From positions 1 through 35,284 of the IMG/VR virus record IMGVR_UViG_3300035703_004046: a DNA stretch of 35,284 nt; one strand, given 5' to 3'. Positions 7,194-29,896 of the stretch are shown here, piece by piece; position 1 is the stretch's first letter; each line of letters begins with the position of its first letter. The stretch comes from a virus. Made by a program: the position numbers and the translations under genes. The notes below the pieces were generated by a model. The model was not told the DNA's origin. It ran no database searches and saw only the letters and a program-made list of their open reading frames with translations.

Positions 7194-7418
7194 TCAATAT
7201 TTCTCTGTTTCTAATGGGATAATAGGAGTATTATAATCGTTAGTATTTGGATAAATTTCTAACAATTGTTCATCTTCTAAACATTTAGCTTTAGCTATTG
7301 ACATTGATTTATCCTGTGCATCTACTGAATACTTAGATTCAGCTATTGACATTGATTTATCCTGTGCATCTACTGAATACTTAGATTTAGCTATTGACAT
7401 TGATTTTTTTAAACTCAT
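7194..7418 (-). CDS. small protein with 16-residue tandem repeats
   Basis: A 74-residue protein of unknown function. Residues about 5-43 consist of 2.4 copies of a 16-residue unit (KSMSIA K/E SKYSVDAQD); the C-terminal 30 residues are acidic and non-repetitive (CLEDEQLLEIYPNTNDYNT). There is no signal peptide or membrane span. The DNA repeats are nearly identical, pointing to recent expansion. The gene begins about 60 bp after the terminator that closes the lysis genes, behind an A+T-rich spacer that may hold its own promoter, and is followed by a small membrane peptide. Whether it is expressed is unproven, but the repeat keeps the frame (48 bp) without stops. Confidence 0.5.
   Translation of the reverse strand: MSLKKSMSIAKSKYSVDAQDKSMSIAESKYSVDAQDKSMSIAKAKCLEDEQLLEIYPNTNDYNTPIIPLETEKY
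7293..7406. repeat. 48-bp tandem direct repeat, 2.4 copies
   Basis: Copies 7293-7340 and 7341-7388 differ only in the last base (c or t). A partial third copy (7389-7406) matches the first 18 bases. The period is a multiple of three and lies wholly within the 74-residue gene. Confidence 0.95.
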
Positions 7419-9343: not shown

Positions 9344-9532
9344 TTATACGATTTTCTCTAAATTGAAAAATGACTCTGCTTCTTGTATCGTCTCAAATTC
9401 ATGCACATCCACGTTAGTGCCTATTGGCTCCGCGATGTAATTAACTGCCTCCAACAGCTCCATTGGTTGTTTGGTGGTTTTGTCTCGATAGATAGCCTCA
9501 TTGCTGGTCGTTCTTGCTTTGTAAAGTAACAT
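9344..9532 (-). CDS. hypothetical 62-residue protein
   Basis: Small acidic soluble protein without recognised family. The text runs from MLLYKARTTSNEAIY to a helix (TIQEAESFFNLEKIV). It starts 10 bp after the BspA-like gene stop and ends 12 bp before the lysis cassette, in the same direction, so it belongs to the same transcript. It may be a fibre accessory protein. Confidence 0.6.
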   Translation of the reverse strand: MLLYKARTTSNEAIYRDKTTKQPMELLEAVNYIAEPIGTNVDVHEFETIQEAESFFNLEKIV

Positions 9533-9542
9533 CGTCGTTCAA

Positions 9543-10820
9543 TTAATTAGTTAGTGTATATCCTTTTCCTGTCAACTCGGTAATCATAGCAGGTGTAATC
9601 TGTGCTGAGCAGTCAGCACCTGTGGTGCGAATGCTTTTGCCTGACACCACTCCCAATGAATCAATAAATGCTTGGAAATTCTCGATACTTGTCCGCGAGT
9701 AAGCCATATCGATTTGGTAAGATGAGCCAGCGAACAGGGACAAACCTGCCTGTTGCAAAATGAATCCAGTGATTCCACACTTGATGCTGGATGTTCCTAC
9801 AGCTGTAATCTTCTTCACAGGGCTACCAATGGTTATTTGTCGGTTAAGCGCCTCGCATCCATCAAACGTACCATCGTATGATGTTTGTGAATTATAACTT
9901 CCCATGTATTGTTCGTTGTGTAAGTCCGATAGATTCCCACAGTTTTTGAATGCGTAGTCGCAAGTAGTCAGTAAATCACTACCTCTATCAGTGGGTAGTA
10001 CTACTTTGCGAAGCATTTGATTGTCAATGGCTATAGATGCTATGGTCGTTACTTTCTTCCATGATGGTGGGAAGAGAAGAGTGTGCAATTTCCTGCAGGC
10101 AGAAACATAATTGGTGGCCGAAGCATTCACATCACCGAAATTTCCCAACGGCATAACCATGAAGCCTGTATTACTCAATGCGTAGTCGTATGCAGCACAC
10201 AATGGCGTATCGGGAAAATTGTAGATAAAGAAATCTTGAGCTCCATAAGCCATGTAATTCATGGATACTACTTGGTCTGCCGATAACAGATATCCCATCT
10301 TCAACCATGGCGCACGAAGTGAAGTCACTGATATACCATTGGACCACATTTTGGATAAGTCCTTGAGGCTGTTACACTGGATGTCGTAACGGATTACAGT
10401 GCTTCGCTGAGTGCCTGCGTGTAGAGGATTCTGATACGCTTGAATCTTAGCAATAGGCGAAGTAGCGCCGTAAATTTTCACTACATAGCAGTAGCAACCC
10501 TCGTTTGGTACATATTTTCCTAGTCCTGAAGGATTGCCTTGTCCGTAGTCATGCGTAAATGTGAATGGCGCCGTACTAGTACTTGCCCATGATGGTATGT
10601 TGGTATATGTGTTGACAGTACCATCACCAAAACTCACTGTTACATTCCCCATCGAGGCAAGAAGTATTCCTAAGGATAGTATTTCTACGTCATTTACCAC
10701 TAAACACATCTCTCCTGGTTGTGCTATGCCTGTGATATCGGGGATGGCAGAGTCAATGGCTGAACCATTGCCCGTGGAACCTCCCAGTCTTCTTGGATTT
10801 ATTACTTTTACTATTCCCAT
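9543..10820 (-). CDS. BspA-like leucine-rich repeat virion protein
   Basis: A 425-residue protein, probably an adhesive tail appendage. The N-terminal part has a PKD-like strand pattern (VSFGDGTVNTYTNI, then FTFTHDYG; about 60-95). The middle and C-terminal regions show irregular repeats of the BspA/LRR_5 sort (for example MLRKVVLPTDRG, YAFKNCGNLSDL, GTFDGCEALNRQITI). The extreme C-terminus (TPAMITELTGKGYTLTN) is typical of such Bacteroidota surface proteins. There is no signal peptide, which suits a virion protein rather than a secreted one. It follows the FISUMP fibre gene. Confidence 0.7.
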   Translation of the reverse strand: MGIVKVINPRRLGGSTGNGSAIDSAIPDITGIAQPGEMCLVVNDVEILSLGILLASMGNVTVSFGDGTVNTYTNIPSWASTSTAPFTFTHDYGQGNPSGLGKYVPNEGCYCYVVKIYGATSPIAKIQAYQNPLHAGTQRSTVIRYDIQCNSLKDLSKMWSNGISVTSLRAPWLKMGYLLSADQVVSMNYMAYGAQDFFIYNFPDTPLCAAYDYALSNTGFMVMPLGNFGDVNASATNYVSACRKLHTLLFPPSWKKVTTIASIAIDNQMLRKVVLPTDRGSDLLTTCDYAFKNCGNLSDLHNEQYMGSYNSQTSYDGTFDGCEALNRQITIGSPVKKITAVGTSSIKCGITGFILQQAGLSLFAGSSYQIDMAYSRTSIENFQAFIDSLGVVSGKSIRTTGADCSAQITPAMITELTGKGYTLTN

Positions 10821-17156: not shown

Positions 17157-18314
17157 CTAGTTGAATGGATTAAATGTGTAATCAAATATTTTATTTCTCA
17201 TGGACGAAAACTCGGAATGTCTGTTTTTGCTTTTTCGGTACGTAAAGCTAAATGACTGTAATTCGTTGTTGTTTGTGGCTGTTTTATCAAGTGCTACGAG
17301 CGTGATGTCCATGCCTGTAGATTTTTTTTTGTCATAAGTTGACACTTGATAGCTATTTAGCAAGTCGTCCGTCCACACCATCTCTTCATCGGATAGGAAG
17401 CCAGTATTTTGAGTAGTTTCAATTATGAAATTCTGAGATGTTTTGCGGTAATGGTCGGATATGTTGGCTAGCGCATACTCAGCAGTAGTTTTGGTGGTTT
17501 TAAGACCAGTAGCTGTGAATGTCTCAGGCACTCCAAAGCAATTAATGAAAAAATAGTCTTGAGTGTAGATGTAATTGGTAGCATCAGACAGGAACAAATA
17601 CGGTCGCCCTGGCGTGTATGGGTCGCCACCAGAAGTATCACTAACCCATACCTCATAAGATAATACTTGTGTGGTCATAGGTAGAGATAACTTAGATAAA
17701 ATCAGCATCATGGACACGTTGAATGTATAAACTTCATAGTCATGACTGCCAGGTAAAGCCGCACTACCAAATGTCTGAATAGTTTCAAGATGTTCGGTGA
17801 TGTTGGATGTATTACTCTCACCACTTACAAGTTTTACTCTCAAGTATTTAACTCCATCGCTTTTTTTCTTAAGGAAGGATAGGTATTCGTTTCTGAACAA
17901 AGTGGTTTTCTTGGCGAAATTAGCTCGTGTAAGAAAATTGCTAACTGCAAAGGAGTCTGCGTTATAATTGATGTCTGCATCACATTTGAGTGCTACAAAG
18001 TGACCTTCGTAGATGGACCCAGAATCTGTAATTTTGAAATAAATGCTTTTGGAAGTGTTTGTGGAGGTCGTCACTTCACCATCAATGACAACATCTGTGG
18101 ATGTGTCAAAATATTTGTCAATAATTTCACCAATATTTCTAACACGGATAATCCCATTCACATCCCAGAAATAGGTTTCTTCTAACACCAACTGACCATT
18201 GACAGATAGTTCAAATTGGATGCTGGATGAGTTTAGATCTTGACCCAGTATTAAGTCTGGTATATTCAGGTGAAAATATGTGTGCCACTCGAATGGTCGT
18301 TGTGAATACTGCAT
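17157..18314 (-). CDS. putative virion structural protein, 385 residues
   Basis: A beta-rich protein with no signal peptide (starts MQYSQRPFEWHTYFHLNIPD). The central LPGSHDYEVYTFNVSMMLIL and C-terminal IFDYTFNPFN segments resemble tail-associated proteins seen beside portal genes in Bacteroidota prophages. The ATG is only 2 bp from the T-run of an intrinsic terminator, so its expression depends on read-through. It could be a tail-tip or adaptor component. The function is unproven. Confidence 0.5.
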   Translation of the reverse strand: MQYSQRPFEWHTYFHLNIPDLILGQDLNSSSIQFELSVNGQLVLEETYFWDVNGIIRVRNIGEIIDKYFDTSTDVVIDGEVTTSTNTSKSIYFKITDSGSIYEGHFVALKCDADINYNADSFAVSNFLTRANFAKKTTLFRNEYLSFLKKKSDGVKYLRVKLVSGESNTSNITEHLETIQTFGSAALPGSHDYEVYTFNVSMMLILSKLSLPMTTQVLSYEVWVSDTSGGDPYTPGRPYLFLSDATNYIYTQDYFFINCFGVPETFTATGLKTTKTTAEYALANISDHYRKTSQNFIIETTQNTGFLSDEEMVWTDDLLNSYQVSTYDKKKSTGMDITLVALDKTATNNNELQSFSFTYRKSKNRHSEFSSMRNKIFDYTFNPFN

Positions 18315-18390: not shown

Positions 18391-18621
18391 TTAGTCTGTG
18401 GTCTTACAAAGCATCCATTGTGGATCGTTACCAGAAAAATCAACATTATAACCATGACTTAATAGATATTCGGCTATCTCATTTGTTTTCAGTTCTACGA
18501 TATACATAAGGTCTCGCTGTATATCTTCTGTGGATTTCCGACAATTAGAAAAAGCCATTGAGCCTGGGTGAAATTCAGATGCCCATGCATCTAATAGTTG
18601 TGTTTTATATTCATCTGTCAT
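18391..18621 (-). CDS. hypothetical 76-residue protein
   Basis: Small soluble protein ending in EIAEYLLSHGYNVDFSGNDPQWMLCK, a pattern often seen in short Bacteroidota phage proteins. Its ATG overlaps the upstream stop (ATGA, 18621-18618) and is preceded by AAGGAGGTGA, a perfect Shine-Dalgarno-like match that also codes for the upstream C-terminus. Such a site is unusual here and may be chance. No function is recognised. Confidence 0.65.
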   Translation of the reverse strand: MTDEYKTQLLDAWASEFHPGSMAFSNCRKSTEDIQRDLMYIVELKTNEIAEYLLSHGYNVDFSGNDPQWMLCKTTD

Positions 18622-18833
18622 GACTCACCTCCTTCCGTGAAACTAATATGAATGGCGCCAAGTCCTGACGAAAAGTCAATGGCCATTCCATTTTCAGTGG
18701 TCATGGCTTGTACGGTGTTTTGATCATCCAGCATTTGTTTCAGATTCAAGTAAAGTAGTCGTAGCATTTCTTTACTTGTCTTTCGGTCAAAGTTACCTGT
18801 TTTGCTGATTGTAGTGGTGTTTTGTGTTTTCAT
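18618..18833 (-). CDS. hypothetical 71-residue protein, first gene after leader
   Basis: Start chosen at ATG 18833 (MKTQNTTTISKTG); an earlier in-frame start at 18887 would lie inside the repeat structure of the leader. The protein has a basic helix (KTSKEMLRLLYLNLKQMLDDQ) and a C-terminal MAIDFSSGLGAIHISFTEGG segment. It is the first gene of the portal-tail transcript. The arm TACAGAACTCCC of the leader pseudoknot ends 3 nt before its ATG, so RNA folding may control its translation. Confidence 0.6.
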   Translation of the reverse strand: MKTQNTTTISKTGNFDRKTSKEMLRLLYLNLKQMLDDQNTVQAMTTENGMAIDFSSGLGAIHISFTEGGES

Positions 18834-19023
18834 GTTGGGAGTTCTGTATTTAGTTTTATGGCAAAAAGAAAGCGATGCCAATATCACGCTACAGAACTCC
18901 CGAAGGCATTACCGCTCCAAACGGCTCGTGATATGGCATCGCCATATTTAAAACATGTTAGTTTTTGGGCATAAAAAAACCACATCATTATGTGGCACGT
19001 TGTGCCTTCGTAAGAGTTCTGTA
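18834..19023 (-). promoter_or_regulatory. structured RNA leader with competing repeats and pseudoknot
   Basis: Minus-strand order: arm C (TACAGAACTC plus CGAAGGCA, 19023-19003), terminator (18995-18973), arm B1 (18942-18927), arm A1 (TGCCTTCG plus GGAGTTCTGTA, 18908-18890), arm B2 (18888-18872), arm A2 (TACAGAACTCCC, 18848-18837), ATG 18833. A1 can pair with C (18 bp with a small bulge) or with A2 (12 bp). B1-B2 pairing (about 15 bp with one bulge) crosses A1-A2 and would give an H-type pseudoknot. The pairing is seen directly. Use as attenuator or antitermination signal is inferred. Confidence 0.6.
18973..18995 (-). terminator. leader terminator
   Basis: Minus strand: CCACAT, loop AATG, ATGTGG, then seven T (18979-18973). 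It lies about 28 nt after the predicted transcription start, so unaided transcripts would be about 50 nt long. Confidence 0.85.
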
Positions 19024-19026
19024 CTG

Positions 19027-19057
19027 CAAATATACAACAGGATTTGAAATTTACAAG
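19027..19057 (-). promoter_or_regulatory. Bacteroidota-type promoter of the structural leader
   Basis: The -7 box TATATTTG (minus strand, 19034-19027) fits TAnnTTTG exactly. A CTTG (19057-19054) lies 19 nt upstream, matching the -33 TTTG at three of four positions. The predicted start near 19022 coincides with the first base of arm C. It sits just after the stop of the 86-residue membrane protein gene. Confidence 0.55.
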
Positions 19058-19068
19058 AAATTTACGAG

Positions 19069-19329
19069 TTATTTTTCATTAAAGCGTTTCGCTTTGTCTT
19101 GATCAATGTGTTTGTTAATCTCTTGATTTGACTTTATGACCTCTTTTATATAACTTATATCATCAGAAATTTTCCATAATTTGATTATAATTAGAATATT
19201 TAAAACCAAGAATACCAGACCAATGATGATATTTACAAATCCAATTTGTTCAATAAATGTATGTCCGCTATAATTGAATAGTCCAATTAATATGGCTAAT
19301 ATCAATGCTGGGAATAATGCTTTTCTCAT
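19069..19329 (-). CDS. small membrane protein, two spans
   Basis: An 86-residue protein with two hydrophobic helices (about 5-20 and 33-52: FVNIIIGLVFLVLNILIIIKLW) and a charged, Lys-rich C-terminal tail (about 60-86). It is last in a three-gene run after the PemK-like gene and the 134-residue membrane protein, 19 bp from its neighbour. In an accessory block such proteins often act in superinfection exclusion or as TA accessories; no family is recognised. Confidence 0.6.
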   Translation of the reverse strand: MRKALFPALILAILIGLFNYSGHTFIEQIGFVNIIIGLVFLVLNILIIIKLWKISDDISYIKEVIKSNQEINKHIDQDKAKRFNEK

Positions 19330-19348
19330 TTCTATTTATATATTAGTT

Positions 19349-19753
19349 TTATTCTATGCTTTTAGCTTTTGATTTCTTACTATCCTTTTTGTTGAAATTT
19401 AAAAACTTGAAACTATCGATATAATATGCTTGCCCTATAACAACACATCCTAAAGCTACGTATGGTAAAGGCCTTGTATCTTCAGAAGGATGATTATATG
19501 TTATTGCATATATAGCGGCAAAAGCGATACCTAAACCTGTCATAAACTGACTGACACGATTATAATCTCTAAATGAACTTAAAGATTGTTTAAGTTCATA
19601 GTTTGATTTAATTTGGTCTTCTAACATTTTTGTTTGTAATGAATCCAAACGACCATTCATTTGATGAATAGTGATTGAATCTTTTGTAGACTGAGACATT
19701 GCTACATTGATAGATAATACTGATAGGAGAATGTAAATGATTGTTGATTTCAT
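19349..19753 (-). CDS. secreted or membrane protein with coiled segment
   Basis: A 134-residue protein with an N-terminal signal-like helix (MKSTIIYILLSVLSINVAMS), a coiled region (MNGRLDSLQTKMLEDQIKSNYELKQSL; about 32-60), two hydrophobic spans (about 71-85 and 95-112) and a basic tail (KKDSKKSKAKS). It starts 10 bp after the PemK-like gene. An envelope location is likely; the role is unknown, possibly superinfection exclusion. Confidence 0.6.
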   Translation of the reverse strand: MKSTIIYILLSVLSINVAMSQSTKDSITIHQMNGRLDSLQTKMLEDQIKSNYELKQSLSSFRDYNRVSQFMTGLGIAFAAIYAITYNHPSEDTRPLPYVALGCVVIGQAYYIDSFKFLNFNKKDSKKSKAKSIE

Positions 19754-19763
19754 ATGTGTAGTG

Positions 19764-20243
19764 TTATTGATTTAGACCAAATAGTTTTTTCTTATAAATT
19801 TTCATCCTTTTATTATCCTTACTTTTTATTTTTTCAACAATATTATTCAGATCAACATCACTCAATTTAAATTTAAAACAATCAAAATTGCATCTGTCAT
19901 CGTCAATAGGATTCATAATATCTGTACAATCTACATAACTAATATCTTGTTTTTCTAATTGATTGTAGTTTTCTTTTTTTAATGGATATTGAAAGTTTTT
20001 ATCAATATGACTATATAGTTTACTGTTAACTAGAACTACACCTAATGCTTTCCCGTCTTCGGTAAAACCAACTATTATACAATATTTGTTTCTGCTTTCA
20101 TATCCTTGCGTATCGTACAATCCATCACTCTCCTTCAACGGGATATAATAAACATTTCCCAGTTCTATAATGTGATTTTGAATTTCTTCTTCATTAATGG
20201 GATTAATTACAACTTTAGCTAAATCTTCTTTCCAATCTTTCAT
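19764..20243 (-). CDS. PemK/MazF-like candidate toxin
   Basis: A 159-residue protein whose central part matches the pattern of PemK/MazF-like barrels: IELGNVYYIPL (26-36), then RNKYCIIVGFTEDGKALGVVL (about 51-71), VNSK (72-75), and ISYVDCTDI (about 100-108). A basic helix ends it. Such proteins are mostly mRNA interferases. It follows a Panacea-domain gene by 198 bp but has its own promoter-like box (TACATTTG) and the upstream gene has a terminator. The toxin call is therefore inferred from fold pattern and neighbour. Confidence 0.5.
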   Translation of the reverse strand: MKDWKEDLAKVVINPINEEEIQNHIIELGNVYYIPLKESDGLYDTQGYESRNKYCIIVGFTEDGKALGVVLVNSKLYSHIDKNFQYPLKKENYNQLEKQDISYVDCTDIMNPIDDDRCNFDCFKFKLSDVDLNNIVEKIKSKDNKRMKIYKKKLFGLNQ

Positions 20244-20267
20244 GTGAATAAAGTATAAAATTATTCA

Positions 20268-20275
20268 CAAATGTA
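20268..20275 (-). promoter_or_regulatory. -7 box before the PemK-like gene
   Basis: TACATTTG on the minus strand fits TAnnTTTG and lies 24 bp before the ATG at 20243. No good -33 TTTG is seen at the expected distance. Confidence 0.45.
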
Positions 20276-20377
20276 AATCATAATTCATTTGCATTTTTAA
20301 TTTCATAATAAAAGTTATGATCAAGTTATGAATATTTTGTGAATAAAATGTCAACTATATATAATTCAAACATTTAC

Positions 20378-20417
20378 AAAAAAAAATATACTTAACATTT
20401 TTGTCAAGTATATTTTT
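20378..20417. terminator. bidirectional terminator after Panacea gene
   Basis: Arms AAATATACTT (20384-20393) and AAGTATATTT (20406-20415) flank a 12-nt loop. On the minus strand nine T follow (20386-20378). It separates the antitoxin-like and toxin-like genes. Confidence 0.8.
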
Positions 20418-20440
20418 AAACCATTAATTTCAATAAAAAA

Positions 20441-21019
20441 TCAGTTACATCCTAATGCATTTTTAACCAAGTTCAATTCTTTTATGTACTCAATCAATTC
20501 ATCACTTGCATCTCCTGCCTTCGCTATATCGATGTCTGACATAAAATCTCTTTGAGGATCTTCCTTTTTTATGCCAAAAGCTTTAATCCATGCACTGTCT
20601 TTGTGTGATAAGTCCGATAATTCTTCTGGAGATTTATCTTTATACAATTCAATTATTTCATCAATAACTTCAATGTCAGAACCTGAGAATTCATCCATAT
20701 CAGGCTCTAAGTTAGTAGTAATAGTTCTGCATCCTTTCCCCACTTTTACCACATTAATGCCTTCCAAAAATTCAGCAAACAATTCTTTTTTACTAGAATC
20801 AACAGAATCTATGGCCTCAAAAGTATATCCTGGAACTGGTCCACGTTCATGGGCATGAAATTTCTCATTAACTATACCTCTTCCATAAAGAACCAAATGC
20901 TTTTGCTGAGCAAAATACATCAATTTAAAAAGCTTTACCCAGTCAATCCCTTCTGGAAATGACTTAAGAATATAGATAACAGTAGCTTTTATCTCGTTTA
21001 TGCTTTCTTTACTTTTCAT
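20441..21019 (-). CDS. Panacea (SocA/DUF4065) domain antitoxin-like protein
   Basis: A 192-residue protein with a Panacea domain over nearly its whole length: DWVKLFKLMYFAQQKHLVLYG (26-46), FHAHERGPVPG (54-64) and LSHKDSAW (137-144) are the recurring motifs of this group. Panacea domains act as antitoxins for many different toxin folds. Another family use is adaptor to proteases, as with SocA. A TATTTTTG box lies 18 bp upstream of the ATG. Its partner is probably the PemK-like protein downstream, but separate terminator and promoter leave room for another explanation. Confidence 0.8.
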   Translation of the reverse strand: MKSKESINEIKATVIYILKSFPEGIDWVKLFKLMYFAQQKHLVLYGRGIVNEKFHAHERGPVPGYTFEAIDSVDSSKKELFAEFLEGINVVKVGKGCRTITTNLEPDMDEFSGSDIEVIDEIIELYKDKSPEELSDLSHKDSAWIKAFGIKKEDPQRDFMSDIDIAKAGDASDELIEYIKELNLVKNALGCN

Positions 21020-21036
21020 ATATTTTTCAAACTTTA

Positions 21037-21044
21037 CAAAAATA
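21037..21044 (-). promoter_or_regulatory. -7 box before Panacea gene
   Basis: TATTTTTG on the minus strand matches TAnnTTTG; the ATG follows after 17 bp. No TTTG at the normal -33 spacing was seen, so support is weak. Confidence 0.35.
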
Positions 21045-21206
21045 TAATTTTATTTCTTGCTGGTATAACCATTTTGAAAGCACAAAGTTAAACATTATAG
21101 TCAACAATTGAATACAAATTCACAGTATTTTTTATTCTCATTTTAATAACAACTCAACTTCTGATTTTCAACTCTGCCCCTTGTGGGTGATATTAGCGCC
21201 TTTTTG

Positions 21207-21274
21207 CTCCTTTTTGGCGCGACAAAAAGGAGTCGATTTACACACCTACACCCCCTAAAATAGGCGGTGTAGGT
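21207..21274. terminator. two strong hairpins after SymE-like gene
   Basis: Hairpin 1: CTCCTTTTTG (21207-21216), loop GCGCGA, CAAAAAGGAG (21223-21232), a perfect 10-bp stem. Hairpin 2: ACCTACACC (21244-21252) with GGTGTAGGT (21266-21274), with an inner CCTA/TAGG pairing. They follow the SymE-like gene on the minus strand. Neither has a classic T-run, so they may be terminators, processing signals or parts of another site. Confidence 0.5.
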
Positions 21275-21293
21275 CATTTAAAGGCTTATTTCT

Positions 21294-21536
21294 CTATTCT
21301 ATTGACATACCTAGTCCCTCAATCATTTTTAAAATGGAGGGGTTTTTCATGCCCATACTAGTAAGCAATCCGGTACTAACACTTTTTTCAATTATAATTT
21401 TATTACTTGATATCGAAACTTTTACAAAATCTCCAAATTCAAAACCGTATTTTTTAAGGTACTCGCCTTTTAAATTTATTGCTGTAGTATATTTTTTGCC
21501 TTGAGTAGAACGGCAAACAGTAAGTAATTTTTCCAT
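21294..21536 (-). CDS. SymE-like toxin-family protein
   Basis: An 80-residue protein; the start is set at ATG 21536 (MEKLLTVCRSTQGKKY), which is 1 nt after the stop of the ArdC-N-like gene. Residues 3-50 match the SymE pattern: YTTAINLKGEYLKKYGFEFGD, then VKVSISSNKIIIEK, an AbrB-like swapped hairpin fold. SymE of E. coli is an SOS-induced RNA-cleaving or DNA-condensing toxin controlled by antisense RNA. A C-terminal extension (about 53-80) is specific here. No antisense RNA is evident. It could be a regulator rather than a toxin. Confidence 0.65.
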   Translation of the reverse strand: MEKLLTVCRSTQGKKYTTAINLKGEYLKKYGFEFGDFVKVSISSNKIIIEKSVSTGLLTSMGMKNPSILKMIEGLGMSIE

Positions 21537-21537
21537 A

Positions 21538-21936
21538 TTATTTAGCTCCCATTGGTTGGACTTGATTTTCAGAAAACACAAAACACAGCGGATAAAAAGT
21601 TTCTTTTGATTCATCAGTTTCTTGTTCCTCCTTTTCAGTTTTTAAACTGGTAGGACTACCCCAAAGTAAAAGTGCTTTTTCTCCTTTTTTGACAATCATA
21701 TTAGCATGATTCCATTGATTTATAGTTTTAAGATTGCCGTGCCCCTGCTTGGCGTACCACTCAATTAGACCCTCATTAACTGAAGAGTAAACGCCCTCTT
21801 TTACAGCCAATTTAATTGTTTTTGAAATAGTCTTCAGTTCTTCTCTTTTGGCTCTCATTGCCTCCTTTTGCGCCTCTGTTGATTGTTTTTTTAAATAAAA
21901 TGTAGGTTTTATTTGATTTGTATTAGTTGTTTTCAT
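21538..21936 (-). CDS. ArdC N-terminal-like (ssDNA-binding type) protein
   Basis: A 132-residue protein. A basic N-terminal helix (TEAQKEAMRAKREELKTISK) precedes WNHANMIVKKGEKALLLWGSP (about 75-95) and FYPLCFVFSENQV (114-126). These resemble the ArdC antirestriction N-terminal domain, but the C-terminal metallopeptidase part is missing. Such stand-alone proteins occur in Bacteroidota mobile elements. It shares a repeated leader with the upstream gene and is coupled to the SymE-like gene. The antirestriction role is inferred only. Confidence 0.6.
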   Translation of the reverse strand: MKTTNTNQIKPTFYLKKQSTEAQKEAMRAKREELKTISKTIKLAVKEGVYSSVNEGLIEWYAKQGHGNLKTINQWNHANMIVKKGEKALLLWGSPTSLKTEKEEQETDESKETFYPLCFVFSENQVQPMGAK

Positions 21937-21971
21937 ACATTTGCAGTATTGATTTGAAAATTAATTTTTGA

Positions 21972-22007
21972 ATTGATAAAAAGTTTATGCGTGTGGGATG
22001 GCTCGAA
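21972..22007 (-). repeat. duplicated leader, copy A
   Basis: Plus-strand text ATTGATAAAAAGTTTAT (21972-21988), 11 nt, GGCTCGAA (22000-22007). The same two blocks occur in copy B with 13 nt between. Copy A lies 35 nt before the ArdC-N-like ATG. Confidence 0.85.
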
Positions 22008-22031
22008 ACTATATCCCACACGCATTTTTTT
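21987..22031. terminator. 13-bp hairpin with plus-strand T-run
   Basis: ATGCGTGTGGGAT (21987-21999) and ATCCCACACGCAT (22013-22025) pair perfectly; seven T follow on the plus strand (22025-22031). On the minus strand it is a leader hairpin of the ArdC-N-like gene, overlapping the stop of the upstream gene. A termination role would be for plus-strand RNA. Confidence 0.7.
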
Positions 22032-22386
22032 ATTTGATAAGTTCAAGTTCAAGTTTGATAACCTCCTCATCAATTTTTTGAAGCAGTCCGTCAATGAAAA
22101 ACAAAATCAAATCAGTATTTGATATTGTTAGTTTTTCATCATCTCTATAGGTGTTAGATGACGAAATAGAAAGTTTAAACTTTGCACTTTCAAAATTTCC
22201 GCTTTGTAGTTCTTCCTGGATTGATTTTTTGTACTCCTGTAGATTGTTTCTTTTGAGCAGAAACACCTGCCTATTATCAGCAAGTTGTTTTTTGTGGGTA
22301 ATTTCTTGAAGTTGAGCTTCAAGTTTTGCGGTAAGCTCGTCGGCTTTGTCGTTAGTCGGGCTAACAACTTTCATTTTTTGATTCAT
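22030..22386 (-). CDS. hypothetical 118-residue coiled-coil protein
   Basis: Start set at ATG 22386 (MNQKMKVVSPTND); a longer frame from 22452 would run through the duplicated leader. Helices around 13-75 are charged and coiled-coil like (ELTAKLEAQLQEITHKKQL; NNLQEYKKSIQEELQ). The C-terminus is hydrophobic-helical (DLILFFIDGLLQKIDEEVIKLELELIK). No domain is recognised. It is preceded by copy B of the duplicated leader and is co-directional with the ArdC-N-like and SymE-like genes. Confidence 0.6.
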   Translation of the reverse strand: MNQKMKVVSPTNDKADELTAKLEAQLQEITHKKQLADNRQVFLLKRNNLQEYKKSIQEELQSGNFESAKFKLSISSSNTYRDDEKLTISNTDLILFFIDGLLQKIDEEVIKLELELIK

Positions 22387-22402
22387 GATAAATAATTTTA
22401 AG

Positions 22403-22440
22403 ATTGATAAAAAGTTTATTTCGTATCTCGGGGGCTCGAA
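22403..22440 (-). repeat. duplicated leader, copy B
   Basis: ATTGATAAAAAGTTTAT (22403-22419), 13 nt, GGCTCGAA (22433-22440), lying 16 nt before the 118-residue gene. It lacks the perfect hairpin present in copy A. Confidence 0.85.
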
Positions 22441-22569
22441 TTCCCTTAACACACTACTAAATTACAAAAAATAATTGGAATATTCAAATATAAATCACTG
22501 TTTTTCAGCAAATTAATTAAATAATTTACCGTAAAAAAGCCCAAAAACACAAAAAAAAAAGCCCAAGTC

Positions 22570-23198: not shown

Positions 23199-24848
23199 TC
23201 AGATAAATGAATTGAATATAGACCCGCTGAAGGACGAACTGGCAGGGAAGTTGTTCATCCCCACAAAAAGAGTATCGAAAGCATCCGTGCCATCTGTGCG
23301 AGTCTCAAGCTTATCCTCTTCGCTTTCTACAAGCTTCTCTCCTCGCTTGTCTTTCTTGAAGCCATTAGGTCCTTGATATATCCCGCATTGTTCCATGGCC
23401 AGTAGTAATGATTCGTTGTTATTACGATTAAACATTGGGAATAATCCTTTCTGACCTTTAAACGCCATGTTTATGAGATTATGCTTCTCAATATGCTTGA
23501 TTGGATTACCAATGTGAACCGCATTAACCGTCCATCCATTTGATTTGAAGGTGTTGATTACTACGGACGCAAAGTCATCTGAGTTGACGGCGTAATTGCT
23601 TCCTAGTGCTGTATTATCATAGTAATATACCACATCCTTTCTTTTGAAGTGACGGTAGTACACACAAAAGTCATTGACTAATTCAACCAATTTGCGATCA
23701 TACTTCACATAAAAAGATTTGAGGACTTTCATTTTAATGCCAGACTGTTGAGCGGCAACAATCCAATTGATATTGGCATTGTAATCCATCGCAATACATA
23801 TAGGACTATTCTGGTCAAGGTCGCCGTCTTGCAAGCATGATAGTTCCTTGCTTTTGTCAAAGTTGTAATCCAATGACTGTAGGTAACTATTGTCGAATGC
23901 AGAGTAATAATGTACTGATTCTTTTAGGTTATTATAGAATCCATCCTTTAATAAACCGACTTTCTTACACAAAATAGATGTTTGGAACACTAATGGCGGA
24001 AGGTCGCGCTTCATCTGCTTGATATAGTTCTCTCCTAGCACTTGCAGATTATCAATAGAGCTAAACACATTGTAATCAACTGCCACACTCTGTAATTCCG
24101 CTAAGCTTTTGCATAGACCCTTATATATCGAATAGATGTATTTGGGTGGCTCTACTCCCTGTGATTTGAATTTTTGTATCTTGTCATATAGTCTCCACTT
24201 TTCATAGATTATACCATGGATGGTATCAATTAATTCTCTATCACATTTTTCATCATACGAAAGAAACCAACTACCTCTCTTTGTGGTTGGCATGTCAGAA
24301 ACTATCAGTGAACCATGATGCCATGGTAGGTGTCCAAAATGACCTCTAAAACCACCATTAGCTGGAAATGTTTCATTCTTCAACTTGTCAAAATCAAGCA
24401 ATTTGGCTTCATCCATTATGAGATAATCCAATGTTAGTGAGTTGGATGTCCCCACACCATCTTGAGTGATTATGTGTTGGATAGAACCATTATACCAGGA
24501 AATAACATGGTCGTAACTCTCAGGCTTAATAATAGGTTCAGCGAAACGCGCCGACAATGGAGGTCTACGCCCAATGAAAAAATGGACATTCCGTTTAAAG
24601 CCGAAGCTTTCTAGAGCCGATAATGTTCCTGGTATGGTCCTGGTAAGTCCCTGCTGAAATGTACTACAGACGAACGCACCAGATGAGCGCGGCATCCTCT
24701 GAAAGTTTCGCAATAGAAATGGTGCAACTATACCATGAGATTTGCCAAGTCGCCTACCTCCAACAACCACAACCGTTTTTGCCCCAGTAAACATTACTTT
24801 TTGCTGTGGGTCGTTGAAATATATTTTCTTTTTAGTTCTAATCGTCAT
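23199..24848 (-). CDS. terminase large subunit
   Basis: A 549-residue packaging motor. Walker A is GGRRLGKS (30-37), Walker B LIMDEA (143-148), with a coupling-type SDMPTTKRGSW segment at 184-194. The nuclease domain has acidic candidates Asp355 (CIAMDYNA), Asp411 (YYYDNTALG) and Asp522/Asp525 (GTDAFDTL). It cleaves concatemers and drives DNA into the prohead through the portal. The start overlaps the small-subunit gene by 11 bp. It is of the Bacteroidota siphovirus type and lies downstream of the capsid gene rather than upstream. Confidence 0.93.
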   Translation of the reverse strand: MTIRTKKKIYFNDPQQKVMFTGAKTVVVVGGRRLGKSHGIVAPFLLRNFQRMPRSSGAFVCSTFQQGLTRTIPGTLSALESFGFKRNVHFFIGRRPPLSARFAEPIIKPESYDHVISWYNGSIQHIITQDGVGTSNSLTLDYLIMDEAKLLDFDKLKNETFPANGGFRGHFGHLPWHHGSLIVSDMPTTKRGSWFLSYDEKCDRELIDTIHGIIYEKWRLYDKIQKFKSQGVEPPKYIYSIYKGLCKSLAELQSVAVDYNVFSSIDNLQVLGENYIKQMKRDLPPLVFQTSILCKKVGLLKDGFYNNLKESVHYYSAFDNSYLQSLDYNFDKSKELSCLQDGDLDQNSPICIAMDYNANINWIVAAQQSGIKMKVLKSFYVKYDRKLVELVNDFCVYYRHFKRKDVVYYYDNTALGSNYAVNSDDFASVVINTFKSNGWTVNAVHIGNPIKHIEKHNLINMAFKGQKGLFPMFNRNNNESLLLAMEQCGIYQGPNGFKKDKRGEKLVESEEDKLETRTDGTDAFDTLFVGMNNFPASSSFSGSIFNSFI

Positions 24849-25425: not shown

Positions 25426-25699
25426 TTTCAGATAGTTTTTGAGATAAAATAAATTTTCTAGTATTCTCCATAGCCATGGGTGAACCAAGTTTAGCCAAAT
25501 CAATTTCTTGTTTGTGTAAATCGACGATAGTGGTCAATTGTCCTTTACGATATCGTTTCGAAACCTCGGAGTATTTGTTGGAAATATCTGCTTTCAGTTC
25601 ATCGCAATCCACATCAATGAGAATTGCAATATCATCTAGTTCGAGAAGTAATGCAGCGTGTTTTTCAACCATTTCTAACATTTCATTGGTGTAATTCAT
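25418..25699 (-). CDS. small helical protein before terminase
   Basis: A 93-residue all-helical protein (MNYTNEMLEMVEKHAALLLELDDIAILIDV) ending in QEIDLAKLGSPMAMENTRKFIL. The latter segment recalls phage proteins that accompany terminase small subunits in Bacteroidota. It overlaps both neighbours by 8 and 17 bp, so translation is coupled. The function may lie in packaging; no family name is certain. Confidence 0.6.
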   Translation of the reverse strand: MNYTNEMLEMVEKHAALLLELDDIAILIDVDCDELKADISNKYSEVSKRYRKGQLTTIVDLHKQEIDLAKLGSPMAMENTRKFILSQKLSENV

Positions 25700-26174
25700 A
25701 CTTTATTGATTCATTAATAATACGTTGTATATTAGAATGATACTTTTCAAAAACGTGTACGTTTGTGGTAATCAATCCACTTTCTTCTCTATCTCCTCGT
25801 GTGGCATTTTGACTCCCAACCACGACAACCTTTAGGTTTTCTGTTTCTATAAGAATCACTTTAGAATGATTCTTAGATAGAAATACTTCGTCGAAAACAT
25901 TGTAAGCAAAGCCCATTATTTCTTTAAGTTTCTGGGCTGATTTCAAGTCGATAACTAGTTTTACATCCTGAATCAAATCTTTATTTCTAAGTCGATATAC
26001 CTTTCTGATAAACTCCTCCGAAATGCTGAATGAAATTATTGTGATATGAGCTTTACCTGTTTGTTCCAGGATCCATTCAAGGACGTTGTAAATCTGCATA
26101 CTTTTACCTAAATAAGCCTCAATGTAATTATTGAGGCTTATTGGTTTAAGAGATTTGATGCTGTTAGTTGACAT
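25683..26174 (-). CDS. PLD-superfamily nuclease-like protein
   Basis: A 163-residue protein with one HKD-type motif: HSKVILIE (103-110) and GSQNATRGDREESG (120-133). This fits HxK-x4-(D/E) and G-S-x-N of the phospholipase D nucleases such as Nuc and BfiI, with Glu at the usual Asp position. The N-terminal part (AHITIISFSISEEFIRKV; VKLVIDLKSAQKL) has alternating strand and helix as in that fold. A single motif implies dimeric action. It lies between an unknown helical gene and the terminase genes, overlapping both sides. Confidence 0.75.
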   Translation of the reverse strand: MSTNSIKSLKPISLNNYIEAYLGKSMQIYNVLEWILEQTGKAHITIISFSISEEFIRKVYRLRNKDLIQDVKLVIDLKSAQKLKEIMGFAYNVFDEVFLSKNHSKVILIETENLKVVVVGSQNATRGDREESGLITTNVHVFEKYHSNIQRIINESIKYELHQ

Positions 26175-29038: not shown

Positions 29039-29896
29039 TTAAATATTAAAAATGTTTATAAAATTTTCTAGTGTATCAATTCCATCTATAAGCCCAAGCG
29101 ACAAAGCTTCCTCAGCGAAGTAAACTTTGCCAGTTCCCCACACGTCTTTGCCTGATGTCAATTTTTCGCCACGATTTCGTTCTATCATTTGCAAAAAATA
29201 ATCATTGTATACATCTGCCTTGGCTTTAATAGCTTTATCGTTACCTGCTATTGCATCCTTAGCATCTTTGTTTTTGTCTGTGGATGCACTAGCATACACC
29301 TCCACCAGATTCACACCCATCTGTTTTAGCCTCTCGGTGCAATCACTAATAGTGATATAGGTACCGATACTTCCTACTTGGGCTAGGTTGTTGTTGGCAT
29401 ATATAATATCACAGCCTGAGGCTATGCCGTAAGCGGCCGAACAAGCTAAATCGTCAATAAATGCCCCGCATAGTTTATTCTTTTTGCTTAATGCTTCATC
29501 CATCAATCGCATAGCCATTCCTTCTCCCCCACCAGACTCTATCATAAGAATCACAGCAGAGATATTATCATTGTCAAAACATTGACATAGTAGGTCGGCT
29601 TTTGATTTCATGCCAGCAGGACCACAAAATTGGTCTTGCTTGGTTATCACTCCACTAATATTGATAACTGCTATGCAATTGACCGGGGTGTCATTATTAT
29701 CCATTCCTGCATTAAGTGGCATGGAACTCATTACATCGCCATTAAATGAATACACAGAATCGATAATTTTGGTTTGAGGTTTTTCAATCAACATTTTATC
29801 TCCTTTGAGATAACTTGCCAATAATGGAATATAGTTGGCTGCATAGCCTTCATCCATCATCCACACACCGTTTAAAATATTGTGATAGTAAAGCAT
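29039..29896 (-). CDS. prohead protease, peptidase S49 family
   Basis: A 285-residue Ser-Lys protease of the SppA/S49 type that matures the prohead. Visible features: VILMIESGGGEGMAMRLMDE (115-134), nucleophile Ser153 in DDLACSAAYGIASGCD (148-163), GSIGTYITISD (175-185), and Lys208-Lys213 (STDKNKDAKD) as the general-base region. A terminator lies 18 bp before the ATG. The scaffold and capsid genes follow. The family is firm; the head role follows from order. Confidence 0.88.
   Translation of the reverse strand: MLYYHNILNGVWMMDEGYAANYIPLLASYLKGDKMLIEKPQTKIIDSVYSFNGDVMSSMPLNAGMDNNDTPVNCIAVINISGVITKQDQFCGPAGMKSKADLLCQCFDNDNISAVILMIESGGGEGMAMRLMDEALSKKNKLCGAFIDDLACSAAYGIASGCDIIYANNNLAQVGSIGTYITISDCTERLKQMGVNLVEVYASASTDKNKDAKDAIAGNDKAIKAKADVYNDYFLQMIERNRGEKLTSGKDVWGTGKVYFAEEALSLGLIDGIDTLENFINIFNI

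Follow-up and report, generated by a model that had tools for sequence, protein, structure and literature searches.

A three-arm leader RNA in phages of Bacteroidota with the predicted architecture of a bistable start-codon switch

In the Salmonella prophage Gifsy-1, the IsrK locus produces from one promoter a terminated short RNA and a bistable readthrough mRNA whose small first ORF is coupled to the next gene, and trans activation by the short RNA has been shown experimentally (PMC4825925). In the P4 CI (seqA/seqC) and P1/P7 C4 systems, as summarized in PMC4825925 and PMC12197685, a short RNA represses, by termination or by a translation block, with C4 pairing near the start site of the antirepressor gene and CI RNA arising by processing. 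We identified a leader whose logic comes closest to that of IsrK in the IMG/VR virus record IMGVR_UViG_3300035703_004046, of which the whole stretch analyzed (35,284 nucleotides) is hereafter called the window.

The three-arm leader lies on the minus strand (19023-18831), as do all features of the leader given below, and every part was found in the place described by the original prediction. The promoter (19027-19056) consists of TTG (19056-19054), a 19-nt spacer, and TATATTTG (19034-19027), and fits the sigma-ABfr consensus. Arm A1 starts at 19023, 4 nt past the TATATTTG box, and its core, TACAGAACTC (19014-19023), is predicted to supply the 5' bases of the RNA. The distal A1 segment CGAAGGC (19004-19010), whose partner is the distal part of A2, can persist in both states described below, and it overlaps the hairpin H1 (GGCAC/GTGCC, 18994-19006), which in turn overlaps the intrinsic terminator T1 (CCACAT-AATG-ATGTGG plus U7, 18973-18995). 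T1 begins 28 nt into the RNA; termination in the TTTTTTT run behind it would yield an RNA of 51 nt. Downstream are the 5' strand of stem B (18927-18943), hairpin H2 (ATGGC GAT GCCAT, 18933-18945) as an alternative fold for the 5' half of B, a small B-loop hairpin (GCCG-TTTGGAG-CGGT, 18911-18925) that is a candidate factor site, the middle arm A2 GCCTTCGGGAGTTCTGTA (18890-18907), and, directly 3' of it, the strand B' (18872-18889). B' is followed by a U-rich tract, TTTCTTTTT (18863-18871), and by hairpin C (TGGCA/TGCCA, 18859-18880), in which a portion of B' pairs downstream in competition with B:B'. The third arm, A3 TACAGAACTCCC (18837-18848), is identical in sequence to the A1 core and ends 3 nt ahead of the ATG at 18833, covering the start region as had been predicted; this ATG opens ORF1 (18618-18833, 71 aa), the first gene past the leader. 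A2 can pair either with A1 (19 bp under constrained folding) or with A3 (12 bp), and the stem B:B' (18943-18927/18889-18872) encloses A2 and crosses A1:A2 and A2:A3 alike. The promoter-terminator leader, the mutually exclusive pairings of the middle arm, and the crossing stem B were thus all present as first proposed, and the same layout occurs in other phages far above shuffled controls. Our main reading, to which we give a probability of about 60%, is that this is a bistable 5' leader of Bacteroidota phages that sets how much the first gene in an operon segment is translated, with A1 and A3 competing for A2.

The likeness to IsrK extends to an own promoter, to short terminated and readthrough RNAs from one start, to a readthrough leader with two alternative long-range folds, one of which occludes the start of the small first ORF, and to a prophage location. 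At the sequence level, the promoter and intrinsic terminator would yield a short RNA, with some transcripts continuing into an ORF, and the short RNA is complementary to the region controlling the first ORF start (A1:A2, A2:A3). The Bacteroidota leader, however, is described here from its sequence, whereas trans activation by IsrK is known from experiment, and it further differs in its three arms, with the A1 core equal to A3, its A2-enclosing B:B' stem, its Bacteroidota promoter, its dozens of diverged copies, and an ORF1 that is not conserved. As in P4 CI and P1/P7 C4, the short RNA and the targets it complements are encoded in one transcript and the arms are sequence-specific, but pairing of A1 would be expected to open the start rather than to repress, and the short RNA would come from a terminator near the 5' end and not, like CI, from processing. 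There was no match to a curated RNA family, and neither IsrK, P4 CI, nor P1 C4 is a family to which the leader can be assigned by sequence. The put RNA of HK022, EAR, and lambda pR'/tR' also place a promoter-proximal structured RNA or a promoter-terminator in a phage or operon, but these carry no competing arm copy at a start codon, and we saw no sign of polymerase modification in the Bacteroidota leader. In synthetic toehold or strand-displacement riboregulators, two like strands compete for one complement near a start codon, as A1 and A3 would for A2, whereas the phage leader is natural and consists of one transcript that includes a terminator of its own and a pseudoknot stem. The earlier impression that no known RNA family is involved was borne out in Rfam, with 0 matches at gathering thresholds in the window and ten other loci and weak chance matches only at loose thresholds, and we found no description of this three-arm leader in the open-access literature.

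Relatives were identified by several routes. When the A2/A3 inverted repeat was searched for exactly, a single further contig (L002) matched; its element is almost identical to that of the window, but its flanking genes differ. A conserved-core scan found eight contigs that, together with the window, gave six distinct versions. A portal-homology search in which the RNA was not used led to L053, L054, and L055; a profile search of these loci identified a diverged element in L054, and L053 and L055 had, in the same intergenic place, the same layout in a wholly different sequence. A descriptor requiring TTTG, an 8-mer, its reverse complement, and the same 8-mer again just 5' of a start codon gave 64 raw matches in 1.09 Mb against a mean of 1.3 per Markov-shuffled control pass, these 64 including overlapping loci and reverse-strand readings, so that distinct elements are fewer. 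When the common T1 sequence GGGCTTTTTTTATGCCC was scanned for and the descriptor applied again, 19 matches resulted (control, 0), of which 11 were additional real elements. In total, 30 distinct, often unalignable elements from IMG/VR contigs and human-faecal phage records were tabulated, and eight more were identified by eye (L081, L099, L217, L218, L221, L227, L238, and L240). Four genomes carried two elements each (L093/L217, L108/L240, L133/L227, and L207/L238), with arms lacking strong cross-pairing; the human-faecal phage MT835542, for example, harbors L093 at 9492-9700 and L217 at 2010-2330. The element is not universal, since the portal-bearing loci L058, L085, L086, L088, and L091 had none by strict or relaxed scan.

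Other searches were less productive. At the DNA level, the window element matched nothing significantly among named phages and plasmids, an inverted-repeat scan of IMG/VR with 9-nt arms returned mostly chance loci, and a scan of species genomes for the degenerate class I core CACGAGCCGNNTGGNGCGGTA gave 21 matches with titles outside Bacteroidota, which we judged to be chance; at the level of this core pattern, the class I element is absent from those genomes. The protein at 17157-18314 found no relative as bait, whereas the portal-like protein did. The Bacteroides fragilis phages vB_BfraS_NCTC and BF344P1 were considered as carriers and set aside because the resemblance was confined to the promoter. 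From the promoter and the phage relatives we infer that the hosts are Bacteroidota.

Across the 30 tabulated elements, A1, A2, and A3 vary in concert, with both A1:A2 and A2:A3 remaining complementary. Mean pairing energies were -28.1 kcal/mol for cognate and -10.3 kcal/mol for non-cognate A1:A2, and -22.6 and -7.5 kcal/mol, respectively, for A2:A3, and the observed means were reached by 0 of 10,000 permutations. As the arms helped to detect many of these elements, sets found independently of the arms weigh more as tests. In the six versions found via the conserved core, with the arms unused, both partners had changed in 7 pairs of the A1:A2/T1/B structure and in 6 of the A2:A3/H1/H2/C structure (0 of 500 shuffles), and slid controls gave 0-1 pairs. 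In seven arm-independent versions, 80 of 84 cells were standard pairs for each arm, a result equaled in 3 of 5000 permutations. The original prediction had named covariation in related phages as a check, and these two sets supplied the compensatory changes. Individual cases include L025, in which two adjacent bases are altered jointly in A1, A2, and A3, two compensatory pairs in T1, one in H1, a G-C to A-U replacement in H2 of L023/L027, and an A-U to U-A replacement in stem B of L054.

The B:B' stem enclosing A2 was identified in 30 of 30 elements. Hairpin C, which takes a portion of B' from B, was present in nearly all of them; it is invariant in the six-row alignment but altered and still complementary in L079, L059, L073, and others. 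The small B-loop hairpin is identical in the six closest versions. In the tabulated elements, A3 adjoins the ATG; in L238 and L227, it overlaps the start region. In the latter (540-900), a near-perfect B:B' is followed by TTTTTT, and A3 seemingly lies within the first codons and not 5' of the ATG. Mean identity within class I was 91% for B and B' against 58-68% for the A1, A2, and A3 cores. The variable arms are suggestive of selection for arm diversity, although the promoter segment, at 65% identity, is as variable as they are. Taken together, the comparison shows the promoter, T1, compensatory complementarity among A1, A2, and A3, the position of A3 beside or over the ATG, and B:B'.

The promoter type, TTG/nAnnTTTG, is that of sigma-ABfr of Bacteroides, following the consensus quoted in PMC7366714. 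In 30 of 30 tabulated elements, TTG lay 19 or 20 nt from the nAnnTTTG box, a spacing independent of detection, which required TTTG only, and A1 began 2-5 nt after the box. An early intrinsic terminator T1 with its U run was identified in all 30, with predicted short RNAs of 45-77 nt. In the window, T1 was the sole terminator-like site of the region by a simple scan (shuffle mean, 0.3) that covered loops of 3-8 only and did not flag B:B' with its U tract. This tract averaged 5.9 U in 8 nt over the 30 elements and is possibly a second terminator, T2, or a pause site, which suggests that transcriptional control may matter in addition to translation.

We propose that the RNA begins at A1 and that T1 probably stops most polymerases, leaving the short RNA. 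In a readthrough leader, A1 would take A2 first, A3 being as yet unmade, so that A3 and the start codon would be exposed once transcribed; A3 would then oust A1 from A2 by branch migration, during which the distal A1:A2 helix may tether the complex. Adenines upstream of the start codon matter for translation in Bacteroidetes (PMC7366714), and A2:A3 masks the region just 5' of the start codon; A1:A2 is therefore proposed as the open state and A2:A3, which would shut the initiation region, as the closed state. B:B' could stack beside A2 whichever arm A2 is paired with, and B could be dismantled by hairpin C or H2. The start site, the termination efficiency, the folding order, the ON/OFF assignment, and the trigger are our inferences.

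In constrained folds of 29 elements, the A1:A2 and A2:A3 states differed by a median of -1.5 kcal/mol, with an absolute difference of at most 4 kcal/mol in 22, and in 22, both states retained a distal A1:A2 helix, four or more base pairs long, as a potential toehold. The near-equal energies arise partly because A1 and A3 share sequence, and with states so close, a modest input could tip the switch: possible inputs are protein binding at the conserved B-loop hairpin, ribosome loading, processing that removes A1, or additional A1 provided in trans by the short RNA. For such trans action, suggested in the original prediction, IsrK, in which pairing opens the start region, is a good precedent (PMC4825925), and the diversified arms are compatible with it. 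In pseudoknot-free equilibrium folding, class I leaders, among them that of the window, were predicted mostly as A2:A3 with or without extra A1 RNA (unpaired probability of the window A3, 0.21), so the ON state would need kinetic or factor stabilization. Under the same folding, adding the short RNA raised A3 accessibility by more than 0.3 in 0 of 27 leaders when the mRNA was full length, and a gain was seen in 5 of 27 when A1-T1 was removed from it; in these models, cis action appears more likely than trans action of the short RNA. We advance only tentatively, and with some doubt, the broader proposal of a widespread family of natural, mutually orthogonal strand-displacement switches, in which each element would have an arm "address," the terminated RNA would act in trans on any copy that shares this address, be it in its own or a related phage, and arms would diversify against cross-talk within a genome and between rival phages.

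The genomic context does not bear out the suggestion that the leader guards a portal-tail block in the manner of lambda pR'/tR'. A portal-like gene and the tape measure are downstream of the element in the window, but a terminase-like gene (23199-24848) and a head-protease-like gene (29039-29896) are encoded in the same orientation upstream of it, and the element therefore does not start a late operon ahead of terminase and head genes. Most loci have the element ~2-4.5 kb ahead of the portal, L023, L027, and L103 have it after the portal, and a genome can carry two. Further, the first gene varies: ORF1 falls into numerous small, mutually unrelated families whose distribution does not follow RNA class, and it is 83% identical between L026 (class I) and L070 (class II) and 98% identical between L062 (class I) and L053 (class II). 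This independence and the varied context mark the leader as a module whose recombination is uncoupled from that of its downstream gene.

Several observations concern the neighboring genes. In L221 (24-800; MT836165, human faeces), the element is immediately 5' of a Phage_pRha plus KilAC (ANT) antirepressor gene; this is the only locus with an antirepressor directly downstream, unrelated small ORFs following the element in the window and most others. ORF2 of the window (18391-18621, minus strand) overlaps ORF1 and is preceded by AAGGAGGTGA (18618-18640), a strong Shine-Dalgarno sequence, unusual for Bacteroidota, and its overlapping start would suit coupling to ORF1; many ORF1 proteins end in a conserved EGG/KGG, the codons of which could supply the same sequence. 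Just upstream of the element, between terminase and portal, a small-gene block (19069-22452, minus strand) with a SocA/Panacea-like gene (20441-21019) and, just under the cut-off, SymE-like (21294-21614) and ArdC N-terminal-like (21538-21936) genes looks like an accessory insertion. Elsewhere on the minus strand, a 74-aa ORF (7194-7418) consists of three near-identical repeats, KSMSIAxSKYSVDAQD, and a protein with a weak PLD-like domain (25683-26174) is encoded upstream of the terminase-like gene; by eye, the protein following the element in L002 resembles it.

Other explanations account for parts of these data. An antisense immunity or incompatibility RNA in the style of P4 CI or P1 C4 would act in trans on A2 of a transcript that had just arrived or just been made and shut the operon, for instance by favoring B:B' and a stop at the U tract, with the arms setting specificity. 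The high variability of the arms beside a 91% identical B in class I, the arms without strong cross-pairing in two-element genomes, the U-rich tract after B', and the antirepressor gene of L221, a gene type under C4 and IsrK control, would all suit such an RNA. We nevertheless regard it as rather unlikely: A1 on A2 would free the start region and not block it, A1 is present in cis on every transcript from the promoter, small unrelated ORFs and not an antirepressor follow most elements, and selection for diversity is only a possible reading when the promoter segment varies as much as the arms. Cis antitermination or attenuation, in which a folded leader or a factor would carry polymerase past T1 and later stops without translation being the target, as in put, EAR, or lambda pR'/tR', leaves A3 and its constant ATG position unexplained, and polymerase has already passed T1 and the U tract by the time A3 and the 3' strand of hairpin C are made. 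This reading is improbable, even though the terminator immediately after the promoter, the pseudoknotted fold, the location within the structural-gene region, and the U tract after B' are in its favor, and the lack of an Rfam match also counts against it. The put-type antitermination invoked in the original prediction gained no positive support, and A3 with its constant closeness to the ATG points to translation.

Inverted and direct repeats in varied gene contexts could also be expected of a DNA-level element, with the A1/A2 inverted copies serving as recombination or inversion sites, or of a mobile insertion. The pairing in T1, H1, H2, and C matters in RNA, though, the promoter and ATG spacing are fixed, and there was no inverted version among those from the core-sequence or portal-homology searches, which makes this explanation very improbable. 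There is similarly little to be said for an 18-residue leader peptide, MAMPYHEPFGAVMPSGVL, as the driver of class I conservation; its frame is open in the window and L002 but missing from other classes. The peptide was rejected on L023/L027, where its first ATG is lost (ATAGCG) together with a compensatory change and the end of the frame is altered.

The leader is a conserved structured RNA from phages of a phylum that dominates in the gut and the environment, and for which few accounts of RNA regulation by phages exist. It is missing from Rfam, and its architecture outlasts almost complete sequence turnover. As Bacteroidota mRNAs lack classical Shine-Dalgarno signals (PMC7366714), it would offer a testable example of start-codon switching in the mRNAs of this phylum. 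Its copies also constitute a natural set of orthogonal arm pairs, potential riboregulators for study in laboratory Bacteroides.
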